64,000 bases of DNA from a virus. Positions 3,169 to 43,052 of this stretch are shown here, piece by piece (positions within the stretch are counted from its first letter, which is position 1; every line of letters starts with the position of its first letter). Position numbers and translations under genes: made by a program. The stretch is from IMG/VR virus record IMGVR_UViG_3300050821_003995, positions 31,022 through 95,021 of that record; one strand, written 5' to 3'. The notes beneath the pieces are model-generated. The model was not told where the DNA came from, made no database searches, and saw only the letters and a program-made list of their open reading frames with translations.

Positions 3169-3447
3169 TCACGTTCCATGTTTGTCTCCATACAGCATCT
3201 TGATCAGGTCCTGATCCATTTGATCATACATCCCGTCCAGTGCTGCCTTGCGTTCTTCCTCAACCTGAGCGTTGTATTCGTCCCACGTCATCGGTATGAG
3301 TTCCCGAATGACGCCGTTTTCACGCTTCATCGTGCCGCGTGCGCGCTTCTCAATGAACTCTGGAAGTGGGACACGGCGGGTGACAGTCTTCCAGAATGCC
3401 GCCAGGGCATTCGGCTTGAGGGTGTCGCTCTCAAACTCTGGTTCCAT
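3169..3447 (-). CDS. LPEFIE-motif family protein, unknown function
   Basis: 92 residues with one of the best motif copies (LPEFIEKRARGTMKRENG) in the middle, preceded by TRRVP. The C-terminal third is an acidic, Met-rich helix (YDQMDQDLIKML). Start overlaps the end of the gene at 3431-4063. Function unknown. Confidence 0.75.
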   Translation of the reverse strand: MEPEFESDTLKPNALAAFWKTVTRRVPLPEFIEKRARGTMKRENGVIRELIPMTWDEYNAQVEEERKAALDGMYDQMDQDLIKMLYGDKHGT

Positions 3448-5014: not shown

Positions 5015-5494
5015 CTAACCTTTGATGCCAATAGAAGCGCGTGTTTTTCTTGAGGGTAAGTTCTGTGTTACGTGTTTCCAATACTTGCCCCGGCATATGT
5101 CCTGAACATAACCACGGTTTAGGCCATATTGCCGGGCAAGCTTCTTGTACCCCAATGGTGATGTGTAAAGAGCAATGACTTGTTCTTTAGTCAATTTAGC
5201 ATTGTGGTGGTTCTCACCACATCTTGCTAGATGATTGCAATTATACTTACCAGCCGCAGTGTTCTCAGTTGCTAAAATGCACTGAACATTGTTTGGATGA
5301 TAAGGGCCAACATCATTGTTCCGTGCCATTACATATTGACCATGATGCAACCCCCGCTTCTCAAACCAGCGGTAACCTAGGTGGTCTTCCCACCACTCAA
5401 CCCATTCATCGAATGTAAATTGAAACTTGATGCCCCGGTTCCTGGCGGCAGAACGCTGCCAACTAAAAGCATCACGTATTCTATCTTTTGACAT
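5015..5494 (-). CDS. HNH-like homing endonuclease with C-terminal HTH
   Basis: 159 residues from the ATG at 5492-5494; the frame is open further upstream, but residues before MSKDRIRDAF are not shared with paralogues. Order: basic N-terminal helix, FDEWVEWWEDHLG, YVMARNNDVGPY with following N-V, then KLTKEQVIALY and a helix-turn-helix (YKKLARQYGLNRGYVQDI) ending in KYWKHV. The C-terminal HTH plus WKH ending is shared with 7569-7994 and, in part, with 42480-43052. Stands alone on the minus strand in front of the rightward operon. Such genes are commonly mobile, intron-free homing elements; cleavage is inferred only. Confidence 0.75.
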   Translation of the reverse strand: MSKDRIRDAFSWQRSAARNRGIKFQFTFDEWVEWWEDHLGYRWFEKRGLHHGQYVMARNNDVGPYHPNNVQCILATENTAAGKYNCNHLARCGENHHNAKLTKEQVIALYTSPLGYKKLARQYGLNRGYVQDICRGKYWKHVTQNLPSRKTRASIGIKG

Positions 5495-5566
5495 AAGTGC
5501 CCCTTGATTGAATTGTATATAACAACACATAACCCGACCCCACAACCTCAAACTAAGGAGACTGCA

Positions 5567-7568: not shown

Positions 7569-7994
7569 TTAGATGTGTTTCCAAGTTTTTCTAGCTCTAA
7601 TCAACCAAATGTTATTATGGACTACCTTGTATCTTTTAGCTAATAGGGAGAGTGGCTCTTTTGATGCCCTGATTTCCAAAACTTGTTTTTCAGTCAACTT
7701 AGAACACGCACATGCAGACCCAATAGCTTCTTCACGCTCAGCCGTATTGGTTCGATTGGTTATACATTTTATGTTTCCCCTTTCGTAAGGCCCCTTATCG
7801 CCTTTGCGGGCCATGCAGTATTTGCCCGCACCACGTCCACGCAATTCAAACCAATTTGAGCCTAGTTGCTCGACCCACCACACAATCCAGTCTTGCACTG
7901 TAAACTTAAACCCAATGCGCCGGCAACGAGCCATGCGACGTTGGTTCCAATAGGCTGTTCGATGAGCATAAGGGATAGGACTACGGTGTGACAC
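7569..7994 (-). CDS. HNH-like homing endonuclease with C-terminal HTH
   Basis: 141 residues. Same plan as 5015-5494: basic N-terminus, VQDWIVWWVEQLG, YCMARKGDKGPYERGN, KLTEKQVLEI, then a helix-turn-helix and a final TWKHI. Sits antisense between two rightward genes, as expected for an inserted mobile endonuclease gene. Its base composition is more AT-rich than the flanking genes. Catalytic activity is inferred, since the usual HNH histidines are not clear. Confidence 0.75.
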   Translation of the reverse strand: MSHRSPIPYAHRTAYWNQRRMARCRRIGFKFTVQDWIVWWVEQLGSNWFELRGRGAGKYCMARKGDKGPYERGNIKCITNRTNTAEREEAIGSACACSKLTEKQVLEIRASKEPLSLLAKRYKVVHNNIWLIRARKTWKHI

Positions 7995-28995: not shown

Positions 28996-29274
28996 ATGGG
29001 CAAAGCCGACGAAATGGTGGCACGCAAGCGCCACAACAAAGCCGTCATGGACCTGCCGGCCACGTTCTGCAATACGGTAGAGTTCAACTTAAGCGAATTG
29101 GGGCTACGCTTCACCTTTGGGGAGCTGCCACTAATTGACGGTGAGGAAGCAACCTATCGAGTTGCTATATTCATACCTGCTTCAATGGTAGCCGGCATGA
29201 GCCAAACCCTGGTCAAAATTCAACAGGATCAAGCAGCCAAGCAGCAAAAGGCCAAAGATGCTCTACAAAACTAA
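28996..29274 (+). CDS. Small protein, DUF3467-like by feel
   Basis: 92 residues from ATG 28996, one base after the previous stop. TFCNTVEFNLSELGLRFTFG, then YRVAIFIPASMVAGMSQTLV is the pattern of the DUF3467 family (a strand pair, then R-V-x-I/P and a helix). Ends in a charged helix. Overlaps the methyltransferase frame by 17 bases. Function unknown. Confidence 0.5.
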   Translation: MGKADEMVARKRHNKAVMDLPATFCNTVEFNLSELGLRFTFGELPLIDGEEATYRVAIFIPASMVAGMSQTLVKIQQDQAAKQQKAKDALQN

Positions 29275-31297
29275 AGCGGGCGGCAGGACCCTATATAAAA
29301 GCCGCCCGCTGCTGCTCAGCCCCCAGCAAGCCTATACGCGCCCCAGCCCCGGCAAAGCGTGGTTCATGACCACAACTAGCGTCTGGCGCGTGGACGAAAT
29401 TATCAAGCGCAGAGTACGTGATTGGCGACGCCTGACTGGTGAAACAGGGCATGACGGCGAACGATCAGAAACCATGAGGGCAGATCATGACTCGGTTTAC
29501 ACCGGAACGCATAGCGTATTCCCGGCACCTTTGGTGGAGTGGATTCTTCTGCGGTATGGCGGCGCTTCTGGTGGCCGAATTCTTGATGCTTTTGCTGGTG
29601 GTCCTCCGCGTGGTCTAGTAGCCACAATCATGGGATATTCCTATGTAGGTTTTGAAATTCGACAGGAGCAGATCGATGAGAATTGTAAGACCCTCAAAGA
29701 GCTTCAACTCGAAGGCGCACGGTATATCTGTGGCGATGGGCGCTATTTACAGCCGCAGGAAGACCTTGGTACCTTTGATGCGGCTATCACGTGTCACCCG
29801 GCAGACACAAAAATTACGACCGCATCAGGCATCAAACCAATTGATGCTGTCACTACCGACGACTGGGTCTTCACTCACACAGGAAGCTTCAAACCAGTCA
29901 CCGAAAAACTGATTAGGCACTATGACGGTAAGCTTTACTCATTCTATCGTGACTACAAAGATTTACCTTTACGTGCCACAGCAGAACATCCCCTTTTGAT
30001 AAGCAGACGTGGTTTTGTCAGTTGGACACGTGCCGATGAAGTACAGGTAGGGGATTGTCTCCTGGAACCAGTCAAACACGAGCCTAGAATAAAAATTGAC
30101 GGTGGCCTTATATGGAAACATACCTACCCAGTCGGACGCAGCGGCCGGAAATTACGTGGGCGTGACAAAGTCTACGCAACCAAAGATGTGCTTCGTCTAA
30201 TAGGTTACTTCCTTGCCGAAGGAAACACAAACAATAGAACAGTGCATTTTGCATTTAATGCAATAGAAAATAAATATAAAGCAGAAGTTGTGCGTTCATT
30301 TCGACGGACATTTTTTAGCAACACCTCTCTAAAAATTGCACGTAAGACCACTCACAGTATAGAAGGTCATAGTTCGGCAGCAGCACAATTCTTTGACGCC
30401 AATTGTGGGCGCGGGGCATCTAACAAGCACTTTCCTGGGTGGGTATGGGGCTGCTCTGATAAGTACCTTACAGAACTGCTTAAAGCTCTTTGGAATGGTG
30501 ATGGATGGATGGAACGAAATAGCCCATCACAATTGGGGCACACGCGGTTCGGTTATGCCACCGTATCAGAACAATTGGCAGAGGATATTCGTCATCTGTT
30601 AATACGGTTAGGTGTAGTCCCCTCAGTAAGGGTCAGACCGCCACGGGCCAAAGGTCTTTTCACAGATGGAAAATATCACGTTTTCAAATCAGTACTTCCC
30701 CAATACAATCTAACAGTGAGGGGAATATATGCAGATAAACTTGCTCAGATATTGGGGGTTAGAATACAAAAATCAAAAACGAAACGAAGGCCATCCCGTA
30801 GCCCACAACTCACAAAAGATTATGTGCTATACCCAATTCGTTTAATAACCAAACGAAGGGTTAGTAATCTCCAAGTGTTTAACTTAGAGGTTGCCCACCA
30901 CCATTCCTACGTTGCTGATGGGGTATGTTCTCATAATTGCCCGCCATATTTCGATCTCGAAAAGTACAGTGACCGGGCCGACGACCTCAGCAACCTCGCC
31001 ACCTACGAACAATTCAACTACGGAATGTTTGCTACCGCTTTGGCCCACAAAGCCCTGATGAAGCCCGGTGCCTTTGTGTGCATTGTGGTGGGTAATTTCA
31101 GGGACAAAGAAGGCGAACTCATAGATTTTAGGGCACATACGGTTGAGAACTTCCGAGAGGTTGGTTTTGTGTTTTGGCAGGACATCATTCTGAGCAAGAA
31201 CTTCGGCAGCGCTGCGCAACGCAGCACCAACTCCTGGAAAGGGCACAAGCTCGTGCCCATTCACGAACACCTACTCATTTTTCGTCAACCGGAGTAG
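29258..31297 (+). CDS. DNA methyltransferase interrupted by an intein
   Basis: 679 residues before splicing, about 297 after. Motif I is ILDAFAGGPPRG with VGFEIRQEQ; motif IV is CPPYF, split by the intein exactly before its Cys. After it come AFVCIVVGNFRD and a short C-terminal part. Motif I before motif IV and a CPPY (not DPPY) core are found in phage amino-methyltransferases. N6-adenine or N4-cytosine methylation of phage or host DNA is expected; recognition site unknown. The ATG at 29368 (MTTTSVWRVDE) is an alternative start that avoids the overlap with the upstream gene. Confidence 0.85.
   Translation: MLYKTKAGGRTLYKSRPLLLSPQQAYTRPSPGKAWFMTTTSVWRVDEIIKRRVRDWRRLTGETGHDGERSETMRADHDSVYTGTHSVFPAPLVEWILLRYGGASGGRILDAFAGGPPRGLVATIMGYSYVGFEIRQEQIDENCKTLKELQLEGARYICGDGRYLQPQEDLGTFDAAITCHPADTKITTASGIKPIDAVTTDDWVFTHTGSFKPVTEKLIRHYDGKLYSFYRDYKDLPLRATAEHPLLISRRGFVSWTRADEVQVGDCLLEPVKHEPRIKIDGGLIWKHTYPVGRSGRKLRGRDKVYATKDVLRLIGYFLAEGNTNNRTVHFAFNAIENKYKAEVVRSFRRTFFSNTSLKIARKTTHSIEGHSSAAAQFFDANCGRGASNKHFPGWVWGCSDKYLTELLKALWNGDGWMERNSPSQLGHTRFGYATVSEQLAEDIRHLLIRLGVVPSVRVRPPRAKGLFTDGKYHVFKSVLPQYNLTVRGIYADKLAQILGVRIQKSKTKRRPSRSPQLTKDYVLYPIRLITKRRVSNLQVFNLEVAHHHSYVADGVCSHNCPPYFDLEKYSDRADDLSNLATYEQFNYGMFATALAHKALMKPGAFVCIVVGNFRDKEGELIDFRAHTVENFREVGFVFWQDIILSKNFGSAAQRSTNSWKGHKLVPIHEHLLIFRQPE
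29792..30937 (+). mobile_element. Intein with LAGLIDADG endonuclease in the methyltransferase
   Basis: 382 residues from Cys1 (CHPADTKI, block A) to His-Asn (YVADGVCSHN, blocks F/G), followed by extein Cys. Block B is LRATAEHPLL. Endonuclease motifs are LIGYFLAEG at about intein residue 140 and LLKALWNGDGW about 90 further on, the paired LAGLIDADG helices. The DNA is clearly more AT-rich than the exteins. Insertion is in the catalytic motif IV, so splicing is needed for an active enzyme. Confidence 0.9.
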
Positions 31298-31300
31298 CCT

Positions 31301-31579
31301 ATGTCTGACACCTTCAAATGTCCCGCATGCGGCTTTGGCAGCATGATGGTAATGGACAGCCGGCCCTCCAAAGTTGGTGAGGAACCGGCCGTGCGCAGGC
31401 GGCGCAAGTGCAAGAACTGCGATACCCGAATAACCACCTATGAAATTGCCGGTGCACAGGATATTGAAGACCTGAGATTTTCATTGGGACGTATCATAGG
31501 GTTGGCCCGCAATGCCCAAAGTGCTTTGACCATTCTGCTGGATCAATATGAACCCCTGAGAGCAAGGCTTGACCGATGA
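31301..31579 (+). CDS. NrdR-like zinc-ribbon protein without ATP-cone
   Basis: 92 residues. CPACGFG, VMDSRPSKVGEE, VRRRRKCKNCDTRITTYE match the N-terminal zinc ribbon of NrdR (CPxC, DSR, RRRxC, CxxRFTTYE), the repressor of ribonucleotide reductase genes. The ATP-cone that follows in NrdR is replaced by about 40 residues of helix. It could bind NrdR boxes without nucleotide control, or another site; inferred. Overlaps the HNH gene by four bases. Confidence 0.65.
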   Translation: MSDTFKCPACGFGSMMVMDSRPSKVGEEPAVRRRRKCKNCDTRITTYEIAGAQDIEDLRFSLGRIIGLARNAQSALTILLDQYEPLRARLDR

Positions 31580-32061
31580 GATTAATTGACCTAACCGGGC
31601 AAAAATTTGGTTTGTTAACTGTCCTCAAGCGTGGGCCAAATGCTACCGGTCACCATACTAGATGGTGGTGTCGTTGTGAATGTGGAAGTAAAAGCCTGAT
31701 ACAGGCTGTTTCACTACGAAGCGGTGATTCTACTGCTTGTGATGCCAACATACATCGGAAAGGGAATAATAAAACCCATGGGTACAGTAAGACAAAAACC
31801 TATTATGTCTGGTGGTTTATGATCCAACGTTGTCACAATGAGAATGTGCCATGTTTTGAGCGCTATGGTGGACGAGGAATTTACGTTAGCCAAAGATGGA
31901 TTAAATTTGAGAATTTCCTTGCTGATATGGGACCAAAGCCGGAAGGCTTAACATTGGAACGGATTGACAACGACGGCCCTTACAGTCGTAAAAATTGCAA
32001 ATGGGCCACCAATGCAGAACAACAACTAAATAAACGTCCTAAAAGAAAGAAAATAACATGA
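31576..32061 (+). CDS. HNH/AP2-type homing endonuclease
   Basis: 161 residues. N-terminal DLTGQKFGLLTVLKRG and CRCECGS with CDANIH form the zinc-ribbon-like front part. The core is YYVWWFMIQRCHN, ERYGGRGIYVSQRW, FLADMGPKPEGLTL, RIDNDGPYSRKNCKWAT, the classical phage HNH order. It is intact, unlike the remnant at 23912. AT-rich compared with both neighbours and coupled by overlaps to both, typical of a free-standing homing gene between essential genes. Confidence 0.85.
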   Translation: MRLIDLTGQKFGLLTVLKRGPNATGHHTRWWCRCECGSKSLIQAVSLRSGDSTACDANIHRKGNNKTHGYSKTKTYYVWWFMIQRCHNENVPCFERYGGRGIYVSQRWIKFENFLADMGPKPEGLTLERIDNDGPYSRKNCKWATNAEQQLNKRPKRKKIT

Positions 32062-33381: not shown

Positions 33382-36300
33382 ATGGGATTCTTTTTTACCA
33401 AGTCACGCCCCGGTAAACGTACTGGCGCGGGTGCTGGTAGGGCCGTTTCAGCCGGTATGCCCCCTAGCCGGGCCAAGCAAACGGCCACCACGCTAGCGCG
33501 CCTGGGCTGTTCTGGTTGCCCACTCAATAACGCCCCCGTAATCACCCCAAAAATGACCCCAACTCTGGTAAAAGGTGGCCAAATCTACTTTCTCGCTGAA
33601 GCACCTGGAAGAGACGAGGATGAGCGCACCGGCAAACCACTGACCGGCCCGTCGGGTCAATTGCTGCGTGAGTGCATACCTGATGATTGGGAAGGTGAGT
33701 GTTCGTTCGATAACGTCATAAATTGCCGGCCACCCAAAAACCGCGACCCTGCATGGCAAGAAATTGAGTGCTGCCGACCACGCCGAGTCAAGTATATTGA
33801 ACAGGCCAAACCACGGCTTATTATTGGGCTTGGGGCAGTTCCTCTCCAAGCTGTCCTAGGTTCTCAAGACCTGAAGGGGATGCGAGGGCGGATTTTTGCC
33901 GTCAAGTTTGGTTCCCATTCATGTTGGTTCCTCCCCACCTATCATCCGTCGTTTATCCTGCGTGTGGCCAAAAACAAGGCAAAGCCTCTCAATAGCCTGA
34001 TGGGACATTGCTTCAGGATGGACATACGCAAGGCGTTTGAATTGGTTGAAGGGCTTGAACCGCCCCATATTGACGATGAAAAGGAAATACGTTCAAACAT
34101 ACAGTGTTTTGATGGCTCCAAATCAAGCCACATCCAATCAGTCATTGACTTGCTCTACGAAGCCCGCAAAGCCCCAATCAAAGCCGTAGATATTGAGACC
34201 AAGGGTTTACGGCCCTACAAGGCCAGTGCAGCCATCATGACGGCTGCTATAAGCTTCAAAAATACGAATTTTTCCTTCGCGTTGGATCACCCGAAAGCTG
34301 TGTGGCCTGACCATGTGAAACCAAAACTCCGCGTCCTCCTCAAAAGCCTGCTCAAAGATGACACTATTAAAGTAGCGCATAACGCACCGTTTGAGATTGA
34401 ATGGTTCATCTGGTATTTGGGCCGAGACATAATCAACCATGGGGCTTGGCACTGCACGCAGATGCAGGCTCACTTCCTGGATGAACGCCGGGGCAAATCC
34501 CGCAGCAATGAGGAGAGCGACCGACGCGCCGCCTATCAGGCGTTGGATTTTCTGTGCAAGCAGCATTTTGGCTTCACCTACAAATCGCTGTTCAAGCTCG
34601 ACAAGAAGGATATGTCTAAATCACCCTTGGGTGAGACCCTACTTTACAATGGGGTGGACACCAAGATTACGCTGCGGCTGCATCACCGGCAAGTGAAGCT
34701 TCTCAAACAGTTTGGATTGTACGACGCGTACATTGAAGCGCTGCCACGGCAGTCCAGCGTAGCCATGATGCAGTTCTTAGGCGTGCCGGTAGATCAGGCA
34801 GAGGTCAAAAAAGCACAGAAGAAGCTTGGCCCTGAGATCAAACAAATTGAGGCTGACATTGCCGGGCTGAAAGTGGTCAAAGCCTATGAGCGCGATCACG
34901 GCAAGTTTGAGCCATCCAAAAACGAACAGATTATCACTGTTTACAAGGATTACCTTAAGCGGACTGAGATTGAGGTTCAGCCTGAGCGCTATGAGGCCCA
35001 TGATTTCAACAAATCATCTGAGAGCAAACGCCGCTTTGATGACAAAGGTGGCACCAAGTATTCGGTGGACAAAAATGTACTTGAGCAAATTGACCATCCA
35101 TTGTCCCAATTGGTGATTGACTTCCGCAACCGCAGCAAATTGTTATCCACTTACGTTGATGAACTGGAACTGGGCAAAGGTTCATTAATTTACCCAGACG
35201 GATTGCTTCATCCAAATTTTAATACCACTTTCACAGAGACAGGGCGAACATGCGTCGCTGGCAATACTATTTTGGATACAACAAAGGGCAGTTTTGAAAT
35301 TAAGAATTTGGACTTGACAACAAAGCACAAAAATGCCCACATTAAAACCCATGCGGGAAAAACGTGTAGAATTGAAAAATTATGGTACAAAGGCAAAGAG
35401 CCAATGTATCAGTTACAATTCGCTAACGGGAGCCACATTACTTGCACTGCAAGGCACCGGCTTCTCACGCCAACTGGTTGGTTGTTTGCAAACGACATCA
35501 GGGTTGGCCAGAAAGTATCAACTTCAAACAGTTTCAAGAATGGACATTTCCAACCAAGAGCAATTAAAAGCATTTGGAGAGCGCCGCCAAAATATAAGAA
35601 TTCTCTCCGAGAGAGACTTTGTGTGGGTGATGCTGTTGCATTGCTACCCCTTGGTATCATTAGAAAAACATACAGGGATAACATTCAAGATCCTGAATTA
35701 TTCCCGTTATTGGCATCGTCACAAATATCAAGCAGCGCTCAAGTTTGTCATCAGCAGAAATTACGCTGCAACCGTATTTGGGAATACACGCGGAGCCAGA
35801 AAACCCAGAGAAAAATTGAATGCAGTTTTGCTTCAGAATCTTTTAATGAAAGGGATGGCGTACGAAGCAATTGCAGCCGAAATGAATACTTCTGTCTTTA
35901 TGATAAAACGAAATATAGTGTACTACGGTCTCAATGGCGGTTCTCCGTTACCTCACCGGTTTGGCCAAATGGCAGAACTGGAATTATCAATCATGGAAGA
36001 ACTAGCACCGGGGCTTCGAGAAGTTATAAGTCCACAACACTATTACAAAGACACAGTGCAAGCTTCATTTATGCTCTACAAAGCCTTTCTAAGTGGAGTT
36101 CTTTTGATAGAAAAAATCAGGCGCCTGGGGCACAGTATTGCATGGCAACAAAATGTACGAGCACCGGAGGTTTGTTGGTCCAAGAACTTAGGCGAAGCGA
36201 GAATAGCCAAATTTCTGTTGGACGAAAATATAAAACACCATCGTCAGTGGCCATTCATAACAGCAGATGGCCCACGTCAGGCAGATTTCTATCTGCTAAA

Positions 36301-37398
36301 ATTAGGAGCAGTTGTCGAAATAGATGGACAGCAACATGCTTGGCAATCAAACAGACAAAAGGACAAGGTACGTCAGCAAACCTTGGCCTCTATGAAGATA
36401 CCTATTTTCAAGATGTCCGATTTGCAAGCCTTACACAACTCGAAAGCAGCAATGGAAACAATTTTGGAACAACTGCCCTTACGTCCATCAAATATGTGGG
36501 TGTGCAAGATGTATGGGACATCACGGTCGAAAGAGATCACAGTTACGTGGCTCAAGGCTTGATCCACCACAACAGTTCGGATGATCCAAACGCCCAGAAT
36601 TGGCCCCAAAGGAATGATGCTTGGGTGCGCAATCAAATAGCTGCGCCTGATGGCTACACACTAGTAGCCTTTGACTACGGGCAATTGGAAGCTTGCACGG
36701 TTGCCATGTGCTCCAAAGACAAGGTATTGGTCAAGGCATTGTGGGAAGATTACGATATTCACTACGAATGGGCTGAACGAACCGCTTACGAATACCCACC
36801 CATCATAGGGGGCACCAAATTCATAAAAGACAAGGACGTGATGAAAAAGTTTAGATCGAGAATTAAGAACAAATTAGTGTTCCCCGCAATATTTGGTGCA
36901 CAGAACTCATCTATTGCAGCTTACCTTGATATCCCCGAGGAACACGTTGATGTTCTAATGCGTGAATTTTGGAAAACCTTCCACGGCCTTTATGAGTGGC
37001 AAGAACGCTTGATGAAACAATACTGGGAAGTGGGCTGGGTTGAGACATTGAATGGCAGGCGCCGTCACTACCCCATGACCCGCAATCAAGCGATAAACGA
37101 TCCCGTGCAGGGCACCGCTTGCGAAATTGTATGTGATAGCATGAATGTATTATCCGAAACTGCCGCAAGAACCAGCCAATGGCATCTACACCCAATTCTT
37201 AACATTCATGATGATCTGACAATGTGTATCCCCGATGATGACAAGATCTTAGAAAAAGCAATCAAGGACGTATATACGGTTATGCTCAGCCCACCTTACA
37301 ACTTTATCAATGTACCTTTATCGGTTACCTGCTCTGTAGGCAAACATTGGTACAAAATGACCGAAATAGATAAATACTGGTCACACCGAGATGTCTAG
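33382..37398 (+). CDS. UDG-exonuclease-DNA polymerase A fusion, intein-containing
   Basis: 1338 residues before splicing, 897 after. Residues about 35-215 are a family-4-type uracil-DNA glycosylase: CSGC, AEAPGRDEDERTGKPLTG, VINCRPPKNRDP with a later CC (iron-sulfur ligands likely) and TYHPSF. Then a 3'-5' exonuclease: VDIETKG, VAHNAPFEIEW, YNGVDTK. Then polymerase A: TETGRT joined after splicing to SSDDPNAQNWPQR, motif A FDYGQLEA, motif B KLVFPAIFGA, motif C NIHDDLT (HDD instead of HDE). UDG-PolA fusions are known in SPO1-like phages. The glycosylase suggests uracil surveillance at the fork. Confidence 0.9.
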   Translation: MGFFFTKSRPGKRTGAGAGRAVSAGMPPSRAKQTATTLARLGCSGCPLNNAPVITPKMTPTLVKGGQIYFLAEAPGRDEDERTGKPLTGPSGQLLRECIPDDWEGECSFDNVINCRPPKNRDPAWQEIECCRPRRVKYIEQAKPRLIIGLGAVPLQAVLGSQDLKGMRGRIFAVKFGSHSCWFLPTYHPSFILRVAKNKAKPLNSLMGHCFRMDIRKAFELVEGLEPPHIDDEKEIRSNIQCFDGSKSSHIQSVIDLLYEARKAPIKAVDIETKGLRPYKASAAIMTAAISFKNTNFSFALDHPKAVWPDHVKPKLRVLLKSLLKDDTIKVAHNAPFEIEWFIWYLGRDIINHGAWHCTQMQAHFLDERRGKSRSNEESDRRAAYQALDFLCKQHFGFTYKSLFKLDKKDMSKSPLGETLLYNGVDTKITLRLHHRQVKLLKQFGLYDAYIEALPRQSSVAMMQFLGVPVDQAEVKKAQKKLGPEIKQIEADIAGLKVVKAYERDHGKFEPSKNEQIITVYKDYLKRTEIEVQPERYEAHDFNKSSESKRRFDDKGGTKYSVDKNVLEQIDHPLSQLVIDFRNRSKLLSTYVDELELGKGSLIYPDGLLHPNFNTTFTETGRTCVAGNTILDTTKGSFEIKNLDLTTKHKNAHIKTHAGKTCRIEKLWYKGKEPMYQLQFANGSHITCTARHRLLTPTGWLFANDIRVGQKVSTSNSFKNGHFQPRAIKSIWRAPPKYKNSLRERLCVGDAVALLPLGIIRKTYRDNIQDPELFPLLASSQISSSAQVCHQQKLRCNRIWEYTRSQKTQRKIECSFASESFNERDGVRSNCSRNEYFCLYDKTKYSVLRSQWRFSVTSPVWPNGRTGIINHGRTSTGASRSYKSTTLLQRHSASFIYALQSLSKWSSFDRKNQAPGAQYCMATKCTSTGGLLVQELRRSENSQISVGRKYKTPSSVAIHNSRWPTSGRFLSAKIRSSCRNRWTATCLAIKQTKGQGTSANLGLYEDTYFQDVRFASLTQLESSNGNNFGTTALTSIKYVGVQDVWDITVERDHSYVAQGLIHHNSSDDPNAQNWPQRNDAWVRNQIAAPDGYTLVAFDYGQLEACTVAMCSKDKVLVKALWEDYDIHYEWAERTAYEYPPIIGGTKFIKDKDVMKKFRSRIKNKLVFPAIFGAQNSSIAAYLDIPEEHVDVLMREFWKTFHGLYEWQERLMKQYWEVGWVETLNGRRRHYPMTRNQAINDPVQGTACEIVCDSMNVLSETAARTSQWHLHPILNIHDDLTMCIPDDDKILEKAIKDVYTVMLSPPYNFINVPLSVTCSVGKHWYKMTEIDKYWSHRDV
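35251..36573 (+). mobile_element. Polymerase intein with open, low-similarity linker
   Basis: 441 residues in the polymerase frame, inserted at TGRT/SSD just before motif A. Block A is CVAGNTILDTTKG, block B is ITCTARHRLLTPTGWLFAND, blocks F/G are VGVQDVWDITVERDHSYVAQ and LIHHN, followed by Ser. Between 35523 and about 36480 the frame is open for about 320 codons, but its translation is Ser/Arg-rich and shows no endonuclease motif. The endonuclease is in the other frame (35540-36562). AT-rich compared with the exteins. Confidence 0.9.
35540..36562 (+). CDS. Nested EDxHD/Vsr-like homing endonuclease in +1 frame of the intein
   Basis: 340 residues from ATG 35540, starting just after intein block B and ending with TGA inside block G. 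The N-terminal part is LKAFGERRQNIRILSERDFV; a helix-turn-helix is visible (GMAYEAIAAEMNTSVFMIKR). The C-terminal catalytic part has LGEARIAKFLLDENI, HHRQWPF, RQADFYLLKLGAVVEIDGQQH and QKDKVRQQTLASMKIPIF. That is the order of Vsr/DUF559/EDxHD (I-Bth0305I-type) nucleases: E, D, then DxxxH and D. Ribosome site before 35540 is weak; the frame is open back to 35333. Confidence 0.85.
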   Translation: MDISNQEQLKAFGERRQNIRILSERDFVWVMLLHCYPLVSLEKHTGITFKILNYSRYWHRHKYQAALKFVISRNYAATVFGNTRGARKPREKLNAVLLQNLLMKGMAYEAIAAEMNTSVFMIKRNIVYYGLNGGSPLPHRFGQMAELELSIMEELAPGLREVISPQHYYKDTVQASFMLYKAFLSGVLLIEKIRRLGHSIAWQQNVRAPEVCWSKNLGEARIAKFLLDENIKHHRQWPFITADGPRQADFYLLKLGAVVEIDGQQHAWQSNRQKDKVRQQTLASMKIPIFKMSDLQALHNSKAAMETILEQLPLRPSNMWVCKMYGTSRSKEITVTWLKA

Positions 37399-38673: not shown

Positions 38674-39163
38674 TACAGACGAATTCCGGGCGTATTTGGC
38701 TATTGACAAGCACGCGCTGGATCAAGAGCTGCAAGAACAGCCCATGCTGTTCTTCAAAATTAGCGAAGCCTTTGTGCAAGCTGCCGCTGAGCGCGACATG
38801 CTCAAGGAGCAATTGGCCACGGTTGACGCTAGGCTTGACGGTGAGGCACGGCGTATTCTTGACAAGTCAGGTGACAAATACACCGAAGCCATGGTCAAAA
38901 ACGCGGTACAAACCGACAAGAAGCATGAAGCCGGCATGAAGAACTACCTTGCTGCCAAGGAGCAGGCCGACGTACTGGCTGCTCTCAAGGAAGCCTTTCA
39001 CTCTCGCGGGTACATGCTGAAAGATCTTTGCAATCTCTATGTCTCAAATTATTATGATGAAGAATCATTCAAAGATACCAGAACAACAGACTTTGAATAC
39101 AGGAAAAACCGTGACCACATATCGAGAGCGCGTGAAGCGAAGAAGCCCACTGACCGCACTTAA
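38666..39163 (+). CDS. Coiled-coil protein invaded by a homing endonuclease gene
   Basis: 165 residues from GTG 38666. Long helices (QAAAERDMLKEQLATVDARL, EAGMKNYLAAKEQADVLAAL), then KDLCNLYVSNYYDEESF. The AT-rich last 140 bases (39020-39163) correspond to a second, GC-rich version of the same ending at 39570-39704, now fused to the endonuclease. By position near SSB and UvsX it could be a recombination mediator, but there is no sequence support for that. Confidence 0.65.
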   Translation: MADTDEFRAYLAIDKHALDQELQEQPMLFFKISEAFVQAAAERDMLKEQLATVDARLDGEARRILDKSGDKYTEAMVKNAVQTDKKHEAGMKNYLAAKEQADVLAALKEAFHSRGYMLKDLCNLYVSNYYDEESFKDTRTTDFEYRKNRDHISRAREAKKPTDRT

Positions 39164-39707
39164 AGCAGCGTTTAGGGCACAACGCAACTCAGCAATTAGG
39201 GAAAGAGGAATTGCATGGGAAATGACATTTGAGGAATGGCTTGATGTTTGGACAAAGTCGGGCAAGCTAGCCCTACGTGGCAAAGGGCGCGGGAAGTATG
39301 TTATGTCACGCCCCAACGATGTGGGTCCTTACAAAGTTGGAAATGTTCGCATAATCCTTGGGACACGAAATGTTCGTGAGGCCCAGTTGGGTAAACCTGA
39401 AAGCCCGGAAGCAATTGAGAAAAATCGTAGAGCCCAAACTGGGAGAAAGCACAGTGCCCGTACTAGAATGCAAATGAGTCGAGCCCAAAAAGGCAAAGTA
39501 TTCTCAGATTTACATAGAGCGCGCATGTGTGATGCTCAACGCAAGCGATTTGCACGTGAGCGTCAAGAGCGAGATTTGTGTTCTCTTTATACCGCAAACT
39601 ACTATGAGGAAGGATCCGTCAAGGCCACCCCTGGGACGGACCGGGCGACGTATAATAAGGGTAGGCAACGCATTGCTGAAGCTAGGGGGCGCCGTGACGA
39701 CGATTGA
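39111..39707 (+). CDS. HNH-like/NUMOD3 endonuclease fused to a copied host C-terminus
   Basis: 198 residues from GTG 39111; ATG 39039 is an alternative inside the host gene. Order: basic start, MTFEEWLDVW, YVMSRPNDVGPYKVGNV (as in 1-211, 5015 and 7569), then GRKHSARTRMQMSRAQKGK, a NUMOD3-type DNA-binding repeat. The last 45 residues (RDLCSLYTANYYEEGSVKAT, then RIAEARGRR) are unrelated to endonucleases. They match the C-terminus of the preceding gene over about 42 positions with about half identical. The tail's DNA is GC-rich like the phage. Confidence 0.75.
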   Translation: MTTYRERVKRRSPLTALKAAFRAQRNSAIRERGIAWEMTFEEWLDVWTKSGKLALRGKGRGKYVMSRPNDVGPYKVGNVRIILGTRNVREAQLGKPESPEAIEKNRRAQTGRKHSARTRMQMSRAQKGKVFSDLHRARMCDAQRKRFARERQERDLCSLYTANYYEEGSVKATPGTDRATYNKGRQRIAEARGRRDDD

Positions 39708-41467: not shown

Positions 41468-42487
41468 ATGTCAAAACGTGAGCGGGTCACCGAAGCCAAA
41501 TCCTCATACTTCGCGGAGGATAAAGCCAACTACAGCTTCGTCTCGTCGGGGTGCACTTTACTGGATTGTGCCCTCGGTGGCGGCTATCCACTGGGGCGCA
41601 TCGTCAACATTGTGGGTGACAAAAGCACAGCTAAGACGGCTTTGGCCACGGAAGCCCTCATAAACTTTATCAGCCGGTACCCTGACGGCGTGCCCGCCTA
41701 CCGTGACACTGAGTCGGCCTTTGACCAAGCCTACGCTGAAGCCATGGGGCTGAAGCTGGACAAGGTTGATTTTGGCTCAGATGATCCACTGGTGACGGTT
41801 GAAGCCTTCACCCGTGATTTTGACAAATTTCTTGACACACGAATTGACACCGAAACACCCGGCGTTTACGTGGTGGACAGCCTTGACGCCCTTTCAGACG
41901 AAGGTGAAATGGAACAGGATATTGGCAAAGGCACCTATGGCACCGCCAAGGCCAAGCTCCTGAGCATATTCTTCAGAACCACCGCGCACCGTATTCAGGA
42001 GAGCCGGGTATTGCTGTTGGTGATCTCACAGGTGCGCGACAACATTGGGGCCATGTTTGGTGAGAAGCACAAACGGTCGGGTGGCCGGGCGCTGGACTTC
42101 TATGCCTCACAGGCGCTGTGGCTGGCCCATATGGGTGAACTAAAGCGCGAAGTCAGCAAAGTGAAGCGTGCCTATGGGGTTGAGATCAAGGCCAAGGTAC
42201 GCAAGAATAAAATAAGCCTCCCCCTAAGAGAAGCCCGGTTTAATTTCGTATTTGGATATGGAGTTGAAGATTTAGGGGCTAGCATTGATTGGCTTAAAGA
42301 ACTTGGGCGTCTAAAAGACGCCGATATATCACCTACTCAATTAAAAGATTATATTAAGGAAATAGACACATTGACTGATAAAGAGTATAGTGCCGAAAAT
42401 AACAGGATAGCAAAGGTGGTACGCCAAATATGGCGCGAAGTTGAGATTTCTTTTTTACCGAAACGACAGAAATACCCCAATGATTAA
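41468..42487 (+). CDS. RecA/UvsX-like recombinase
   Basis: 339 residues. SSGCTLLDCALGGGYPLGRI, Walker A VGDKSTAKTAL (Ala in place of the usual Gly before Lys), AYRDTESAFD, VYVVDSLDALSDEGEM (Walker B), VLLLVISQVRDNIG (sensor) and the C-terminal ARFNFVFGYGVEDLG, all in RecA order. It would pair strands and support recombination-dependent replication with the nearby SSB and SbcCD. From about 42195 the DNA becomes AT-rich up to and through the HNH gene that overlaps its end, suggesting the 3' end was co-converted. Confidence 0.85.
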   Translation: MSKRERVTEAKSSYFAEDKANYSFVSSGCTLLDCALGGGYPLGRIVNIVGDKSTAKTALATEALINFISRYPDGVPAYRDTESAFDQAYAEAMGLKLDKVDFGSDDPLVTVEAFTRDFDKFLDTRIDTETPGVYVVDSLDALSDEGEMEQDIGKGTYGTAKAKLLSIFFRTTAHRIQESRVLLLVISQVRDNIGAMFGEKHKRSGGRALDFYASQALWLAHMGELKREVSKVKRAYGVEIKAKVRKNKISLPLREARFNFVFGYGVEDLGASIDWLKELGRLKDADISPTQLKDYIKEIDTLTDKEYSAENNRIAKVVRQIWREVEISFLPKRQKYPND

Positions 42488-43052
42488 AAAGCCAACAACA
42501 TTAAGGTGCCCCACTTGTAATTGTTTAAGAAAAGTGCCTGACTATTGGGGAAGAACCGCAGATAAGATGCGCCTTAAAATTATGAACAGGCAGTGTAAAA
42601 AGTGTGGCACTGGTAGGAAAAAGTCACATGGGCTAGGGCAGCATCCAATTTATATGGTTTGGTATAACATGATGGTCAGATGTGGGCATAAGGATGCCTA
42701 TGTTCGAGAAACTGTCATCAAAAATTACAGGGATAAAGGGATAATTGTTTGTAAACAATGGAGACGATTAGAAACATTCTCTCAATGGGCATTTGAAAAT
42801 GGTTATAGGGAAGGCTTATATTTAGACAGAAAAAGTAACAGCAAAAATTACTGCCCAAACAATTGCAGATGGGTAACATCAACCATATCAGGCCAACACA
42901 GAGCCAAGGTCAAACTAAGCCTATCAAAGGCCAGAAAGATACGAACCTTACATAATAAGGGCATCGGCTTTGGTGAATTAGCAAAACAGTTTATGGTACA
43001 TCAAACCACAATTAAGCGAATATGCCAAAATGAAACATGGAAAAACTGCTAG
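42480..43052 (+). CDS. HNH/AP2-type homing endonuclease with C-terminal HTH
   Basis: 190 residues, overlapping the recombinase stop. CPTCNCLRKVP with CKKCGTG (zinc ribbon), HPIYMVWYNMMVRCGHKD, FSQWAFENGYREGLYLDRKS, NYCPNNCRWVT. Then a helix-turn-helix (LHNKGIGFGELAKQFMVHQT) ending in ETWKNC, like the endings of 5015 and 7569. The D-R-K-S and NNCRW parts are HNH-like, but His is missing from some usual positions. Clearly AT-rich. Confidence 0.8.
   Translation: MIKKPTTLRCPTCNCLRKVPDYWGRTADKMRLKIMNRQCKKCGTGRKKSHGLGQHPIYMVWYNMMVRCGHKDAYVRETVIKNYRDKGIIVCKQWRRLETFSQWAFENGYREGLYLDRKSNSKNYCPNNCRWVTSTISGQHRAKVKLSLSKARKIRTLHNKGIGFGELAKQFMVHQTTIKRICQNETWKNC

Follow-up and report, generated by a model that had tools for sequence, protein, structure and literature searches.

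The polA gene of an uncultivated virus very probably carries what we call an overprinted intein, that is, a contiguous intein that looks competent for splicing and whose loop DNA appears, from its sequence, to serve also, when read in the +1 frame, as a distinct gene for a homing endonuclease. The gene lies in the 64,000-nucleotide stretch of DNA analyzed here (the window), part of a 95,021-base record in IMG/VR. The architecture recurs in two genes, where three intein sites host three kinds of nuclease between them, and selection keeps the linker frame stop-free through the use of C, A or G instead of T at nuclease third positions. Under the mechanism we propose, translation of the polymerase frame would give a precursor in which the N- and C-terminal splicing halves are joined by a linker of ~310 residues of arbitrary sequence, and excision of the intein would then leave an intact polymerase. 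Ribosomes starting inside the intein would make free nuclease, with internal initiation as the most likely route, and this nuclease would cut intein-less polA alleles, into which repair would copy the intein. The homing nuclease thus probably spreads the intein, and selection on the host keeps the linker frame free of stops.

The polA intein of the window and the nuclease in its +1 frame

The features of the locus are collected in Table 1. The polA open reading frame (ORF) has 1338 codons, is predicted to yield 897 residues after splicing, and contains no stop codon in the polymerase frame from 33382 to 37395, intein included. The Pfam family Intein_splicing (PF14890) matched this frame over residues 649-1064 (4e-11; 43.4 bits vs a cutoff of 35.8). 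The residues expected of an intein are present, with C at 35251, TCTARH fitting the T-x-x-H pattern of block B, and HHN followed by S at 36573/36574. Moreover, a profile built from the inteins of the window and of a second contig, L070, matched the Ssp DnaB intein (1mi8) at 1.4e-9. Relatives with 74% identical C-exteins read AETGRT/SSDDPN with nothing between, and the insertion is absent (zero gap) in most of ~80 related polymerases. Because the polymerases of these relatives run straight through the site, the intein ends are fixed exactly at 35251 and 36573.

Table 1. Features of the polA locus, in window coordinates
Feature	Position	Strand	Basis
polA host gene: UDG, 3'-5' exonuclease and family A DNA polymerase, with contiguous intein	33382..37398	+	ORF; Pfam UDG, DNA_pol_A_exo1, DNA_pol_A, Intein_splicing; phrog_17
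Intein, 441 codons, Cys1 ... His-His-Asn, +1 extein Ser	35251..36573	+	PF14890 match; empty site in relatives
Intein N-terminal splicing half, polymerase frame: block A CVAGNTIL, block B ITCTARHRLLTPTGW	35251..35523	+	L070 46% identical over first 108 residues
Linker, polymerase frame: open, no recognisable domain, sequence unconstrained except for absence of stops	35524..36479	+	Stop counts; L070 comparison
Intein C-terminal splicing half, polymerase frame: block F VGVQDVWDITVERDHSYVA, block G GLIHHN	36480..36573	+	60% identical to L070; resembles C-terminal halves of solved inteins
Overprinted nuclease, +1 frame, 340 aa from presumed start ATG 35540, HTH region then DUF559 domain	35540..36562	+	Pfam; L070 homologue
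Presumed active-site residues E219, D249, E260/D262, H266, K274-D275	36194..36364	+	All identical in L070 alignment

The original prediction, made from the letters alone, had placed intein blocks A/B up to about 35523 and F/G from about 36480, and the splicing halves of Table 1 have these limits. It had also held that the intein is not split, as the stop-free host frame confirms. The linker, described there as about 320 open, random-looking codons, is indeed open but measures ~313 codons. Its Ser/Arg-rich, 'random' look arises because an unconstrained frame opposite the nuclease gives such a composition. Known inteins match only the ends of this intein, and the middle of the polymerase frame matches nothing; for the polymerase-frame stretch 35965-36478, no relative with E below 3 was found among 50,697 phage records. 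Likewise, no in-frame endonuclease was found between blocks B and F, the host-frame linker having no domain match.

The +1 frame is open over 409 codons, from about 35318-35333, within the intein N half, to 36562, and the last 27 (C-terminal) codons of the nuclease overlap intein block F. The third reading frame has 26 stops over the nuclease. The predicted presence of an endonuclease in the +1 frame was borne out by a match to DUF559 (PF04480) at 1.6e-6, with 28.4 bits vs a curated cutoff of 20.6, and the L070 nuclease scored 26.4 bits; the two nucleases are 36% identical over 335 residues (E 5e-59). The HTH region weakly matched phrog_3855, and the nuclease matched the endonuclease-like PDB entry 3hrl at 2e-4. 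The DUF559 pattern suggests catalytic roles for the residues in the last row of Table 1. In a comparison with the EDxHD family, the E/D/E-x-D...H...KD residues are kept in L070 and a phage 'VSR homing endonuclease' is weakly similar (E 0.03); no PDB match named I-Bth0305I was obtained for the window nuclease, which matched only DUF559/PD-(D/E)XK-like entries. Scans with the nuclease alone returned no close relatives in the viral contigs, phages or GTDB genomes covered, and its relatives were reached through the polymerase profile instead. Single-sequence AlphaFold models of both frames had a pLDDT of 31-32, too low to be informative.

The same phage carries a second intein in a DNA methylase ORF (29258-31297), whose LAGLIDADG-like endonuclease (LIGYFLAEG ... 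LLKALWNGDGW) is read in frame. Free-standing HNH/AP2-type endonucleases of phages are also suggested by several small ORFs (5015-5551 and 7569-7994 on the minus strand; 31576-32061, 39039-39707 and 42441-43052 on the plus strand), and one of these ORFs sits just upstream of the clamp and polA genes.

Overprinted inteins at other polA and terminase loci

A profile of the C-extein led to 80 polA loci, most with an empty site. Beyond the window, seven overprinted inteins were found in polA and terminase genes, all in the +1 phase (L070, L023, L026, S-EIV1, Clown, L118 and L119). L070, a 90.6 kb contig, has a homologous polA intein of 1314 bases with a homologous nuclease in +1 and a fully open polymerase frame. 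L023 and L026/L027 carry a different polA intein one codon downstream (GRTS/C...HN/S), whose nuclease, an HNH_3 protein unrelated to that of the window, is again in the +1 phase of an open host frame.

The nearest relatives of the L026/L023 HNH include some annotated in polA introns close to the intein site, which raises the possibility that the polA insertion is a group I intron, removed as RNA and carrying a nuclease ORF, and that its resemblance to inteins is incidental. We regard this as highly improbable, as blocks A, B, F and G are present in the host frame with Pfam support, the host ORF is open throughout, and in a terminase pair described below the splicing blocks are under purifying selection in the host frame. 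Rfam gave no match, a weak negative since the annotated introns L094-L096 are also unmatched by Rfam. The polA introns of PhAPEC7, Pf-WMP3 and PS3 do resemble the overprinted inteins in carrying an HNH related to that of L026/L023; unlike them, however, they are removed at the RNA level, with a joined CDS annotation and the HNH ORF inside the intron. In PhAPEC7 and PS3 (L094, ~3365-3395; L096, ~3240-3270), the exon break follows the intein site by no more than about seven codons. Therefore, the nucleases of introns and inteins have almost the same polA sequence as their target.

The terminase loci came from a survey of intein loci in phage records, which found Clown; its HNH, used as a query, led to S-EIV1 and then to L118 and L119/L120. 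Gordonia phage Clown, an isolate, has a zinc-finger HNH in the +1 frame of its terminase intein. The isolate Synechococcus phage S-EIV1 has a contiguous terminase ORF with an intein (PF14890, 1.4e-11) that likewise holds a zinc-finger HNH in +1, and the S-EIV1-like L118 and the pair L119/L120 also have terminase inteins with a zinc-finger HNH in +1. The nuclease at the terminase intein is unannotated in both isolate records.

Two other arrangements were noted among these records. In Lactobacillus phage CL2 (L114, 506-2590), the terminase ORF ends in an intein-like N half that is followed by a free HNH. In the methylase gene of EBPR siphovirus 2 (L100, 4477-5736), a +1 frame of 419 codons lies open mostly downstream of the intein; it may be a further out-of-frame element or, the gene being GC-rich, open by chance.

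Stop avoidance and selection in the two frames

In a recoding test, the nuclease protein was held fixed, its synonymous codons were redrawn and stops in the polymerase frame were counted. Depending on codon model and stretch, recoding predicted on average 14.4-16.8 stops in the polymerase frame, whereas the observed number is 0, and all of the 200,000 recoded sequences contained at least one stop. The longest wrong-frame open run in 17 other genes of the phage is 128 codons. Each polymerase codon consists of the third base of one nuclease codon and the first two bases of the next, and a stop requires a T-ending codon before AA, AG or GA. At such stop-risk junctions, the window nuclease uses T at 0 of 56 positions vs 69 of 178 elsewhere in the gene (Fisher P=1.4e-10). 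This avoidance is uniform over the four quarters of the nuclease; in the 17 other genes, T is used at 34% of junctions of the same kind.

When the eight overprinted inteins were pooled, a small sample that is not independent as it comprises three nuclease families at three sites, T was found at 0 of 341 stop-risk junctions vs 398 of 1133 positions elsewhere (P=5.7e-55). In free-standing relatives of the terminase HNH, T stands at 123 of 247 such junctions and the same phase holds 16-45 stops, and T use differs between overprinted and free-standing genes at P=3e-57; the within-gene comparison serves as the main test, given the higher AT content of three among the four free-standing relatives. 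For Clown only 2.7-3.4 stops are expected (P=0.02-0.04), and in the junction comparison this locus is not significant on its own (P=0.08) because it is GC-rich.

These results bear on two other explanations. The polymerase frame could be open by chance, which is plausible in GC-rich genomes such as that of Clown. For the window, however, the counts of 0/56 and 0/200,000 exclude a chance opening, and together with the pooled result (P=6e-55) they refute it for all loci with GC near 50% or lower, so that its overall probability is practically negligible. The reasoning that an open chance frame of this length is very unlikely, and that selection acts to hold the linker frame open, was thus upheld by the recoding and junction tests. 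Alternatively, sequencing or assembly frameshifts near 35520 and 36480 could hide an ordinary intein with an in-frame nuclease; the window belongs to an uncultivated IMG/VR contig, and two compensating indels would give the same picture. Yet the linker frame would then be unselected and hold ~15 stops, where it has 0, which excludes such a double error for the window. The same layout also recurs in independent assemblies (L026/L027 and L119/L120), in L070 and in two isolate genomes, making this explanation exceedingly improbable. The original prediction had named such an error, or linker stops in relatives, as grounds for abandoning it. No such error was found, nor would one explain the stop-free host frame, and the linkers of L070, L023, L026, S-EIV1, L118, L119 and Clown contain no stops.

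Between S-EIV1 and L118, the closest pair, the nuclease frame has a dN/dS (Nei-Gojobori) of 0.09 and the linker frame one of 1.95, vs host-frame values of 0.36 for the intein N block and 0.05 for the C block; absolute values are biased in overlapping frames, and the contrast between regions is the informative part. Between L026 and L023, the HNH is 70% identical and the linker 34% identical, with differences at nuclease codon positions 1/2/3 numbering 55/35/91. Constraint on the nuclease is therefore seen in two pairs of relatives. The linker behaves differently: its identity between the window and L070 is 0.172 vs 0.176 under a stop-free recoding null, and between L026 and L023 it is 0.333 vs 0.285 +/- 0.028 (p=0.06). 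Linker identity close to the recoding null indicates that the linker must stay open while its sequence is nearly free. Hence, the proposal that both frames are under selection stands for the nuclease sequence, but for the linker it applies only to the absence of stops. A second, selected functional domain encoded by the linker frame might account for the slightly raised L026/L023 identity, but we find this very unlikely, given the window/L070 identity equal to the null, a linker dN/dS of ~2 in two pairs and the lack of a domain match.

Reading phase, translation and known systems

All eight overprinted inteins are in the +1 phase. An enumeration of amino-acid pairs found none that forces a host stop in this phase: since every NNT codon has NNC as a synonym, a stop-free host frame can always be reached. 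In the +2 phase, a host stop is unavoidable wherever Met precedes Lys, Asn, Thr, Ile or Met, and the window nuclease placed in that phase would have 4 forced host stops. We lean toward the interpretation that overprinted inteins are a stable third architecture beside inteins with in-frame endonucleases and split inteins, established more than once with unrelated nucleases, and restricted to +1 since it is the sole phase that lets any nuclease avoid forced host stops.

It had been suggested that this arrangement could lie on the way from contiguous to split inteins. Some credit for that idea comes from fractured helicase genes in Pectobacterium and Escherichia phages, where the two intein halves have kept a common frame and an out-of-frame nuclease ORF extends into both. 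However, the nucleases of the two fractured loci L005 and L006 are in the +2 phase (LAGLIDADG_2 in L005), with 13 and 10 host stops, respectively, whereas the overprinted terminase and polA inteins share their layout at 36-44% nuclease identity. A layout common to homologues this divergent is therefore maintained and looks long-lived, so the suggestion lacks support and a transient step seems unlikely. At the fractured loci themselves (L005, 4001-4973; L006, 4001-4982), only stops separate the intein halves, and the +2 nuclease overlaps both. The idea that the +2 phase forces genes to fracture found no support, since the nucleases of Amona and AN_ECEAS would bring 0 forced stops. As for how overprinting began, our guess is an origin in GC-rich phages, whose alternative frames easily stay open, followed by spread through homing; starting the arrangement in an AT-rich setting would require ~15 stops to be removed at once, while Clown expects only 2.7.

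No Shine-Dalgarno sequence was found at the nuclease ATG 35540 of the window (-0.3 kcal), and the polymerase's own start is also weak (-1.7). At GTG 3782 of S-EIV1, codons of the intein AGDL turn form AGGAG (-11.4 kcal); ATG 3411 of L026 is preceded by GGTGA (-7.4 kcal), and GTG 2631 of Clown scores -6.0. The codons of G-D/G-E turns (GGA GAT, GGG GAC, GGT GAA) form Shine-Dalgarno-like sequences before a possible nuclease start in S-EIV1 (L116, 3760-3800), Clown (L112, 2605-2635) and L026 (3395-3413). A universal Shine-Dalgarno sequence derived from this turn was nonetheless rejected, being good in S-EIV1 and L026, fair in Clown and absent in the window. Instead of internal initiation, programmed +1 frameshifting from the polymerase frame might produce a fusion of the N-terminal intein half with the nuclease. 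The missing Shine-Dalgarno sequence at ATG 35540 and a +1 frame open back to 35318, inside the intein N half, speak for this route, but similarity to the L070 nuclease starts at about residue 2, and the S-EIV1 and L026 starts have good Shine-Dalgarno sequences. We consider frameshifting doubtful, though conceivable, and internal initiation the more plausible source of free nuclease.

Full-length inteins have been described with an in-frame endonuclease or with the endonuclease lost, and split inteins form a separate class. Like ordinary full-length inteins, such as that of the methylase, the window intein has the same splicing blocks with a nuclease between blocks B and F, but its nuclease lies outside the intein polypeptide and its middle is a non-conserved linker. 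Fractured genes, reportedly described by Dassa et al. in 2009, are said to combine split inteins and a free-standing homing endonuclease in a broken host ORF, with splicing in trans. They share with the window a nuclease gene that lies out of frame between intein halves in phage replication genes; in contrast to the loci we examined, with their 10 and 13 host-frame stops, the window host gene is one open frame.

MIJ3 has a split PolB intein with an HNH (PMC6892783), and thus also an intein with a nuclease in a phage DNA polymerase gene; however, that gene is split and both the polymerase family and the nuclease are different (PMC6892783). The closest parallel comes from a phage methylase with the ShiLan domain, where an HNH lies out of frame, no intein or intron splicing was found and the insertion was inferred to stay in the protein (Arsenault, Gosselin and Gogarten 2025, PMC11855218). 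As in the ShiLan domain and the Pacc40 insertion, an out-of-frame homing-type endonuclease lies inside an insertion that leaves a phage host gene open (PMC11855218). Unlike ShiLan, the window has the full intein blocks and a PF14890 match, a +1 nuclease and codon-level stop avoidance. Mantra, of the ShiLan type, carries its HNH in the +2 phase of a GC-rich methylase gene in a non-intein insertion, and is among the relatives of the Clown HNH. A literature search of openly available papers found no earlier description of a contiguous, splicing intein whose endonuclease lies out of frame, the nearest being the ShiLan paper and an announcement of the same kind.

The overprinted intein is a new, recurrent intein variant, in which one stretch of DNA encodes two proteins, with the splicing blocks constrained in one frame and the nuclease in another, and the overlap preserves, codon by codon, how stops have been avoided. 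Intein endonucleases of this class escape searches made in the host frame, as the unannotated S-EIV1 and Clown nucleases illustrate, and the genetic-code argument yields a checkable prediction about phase. The terminase genes of S-EIV1 and Clown are natural cultured test systems for overprinting, for internal translation starts and for the tolerance of inteins to very long unstructured loops.
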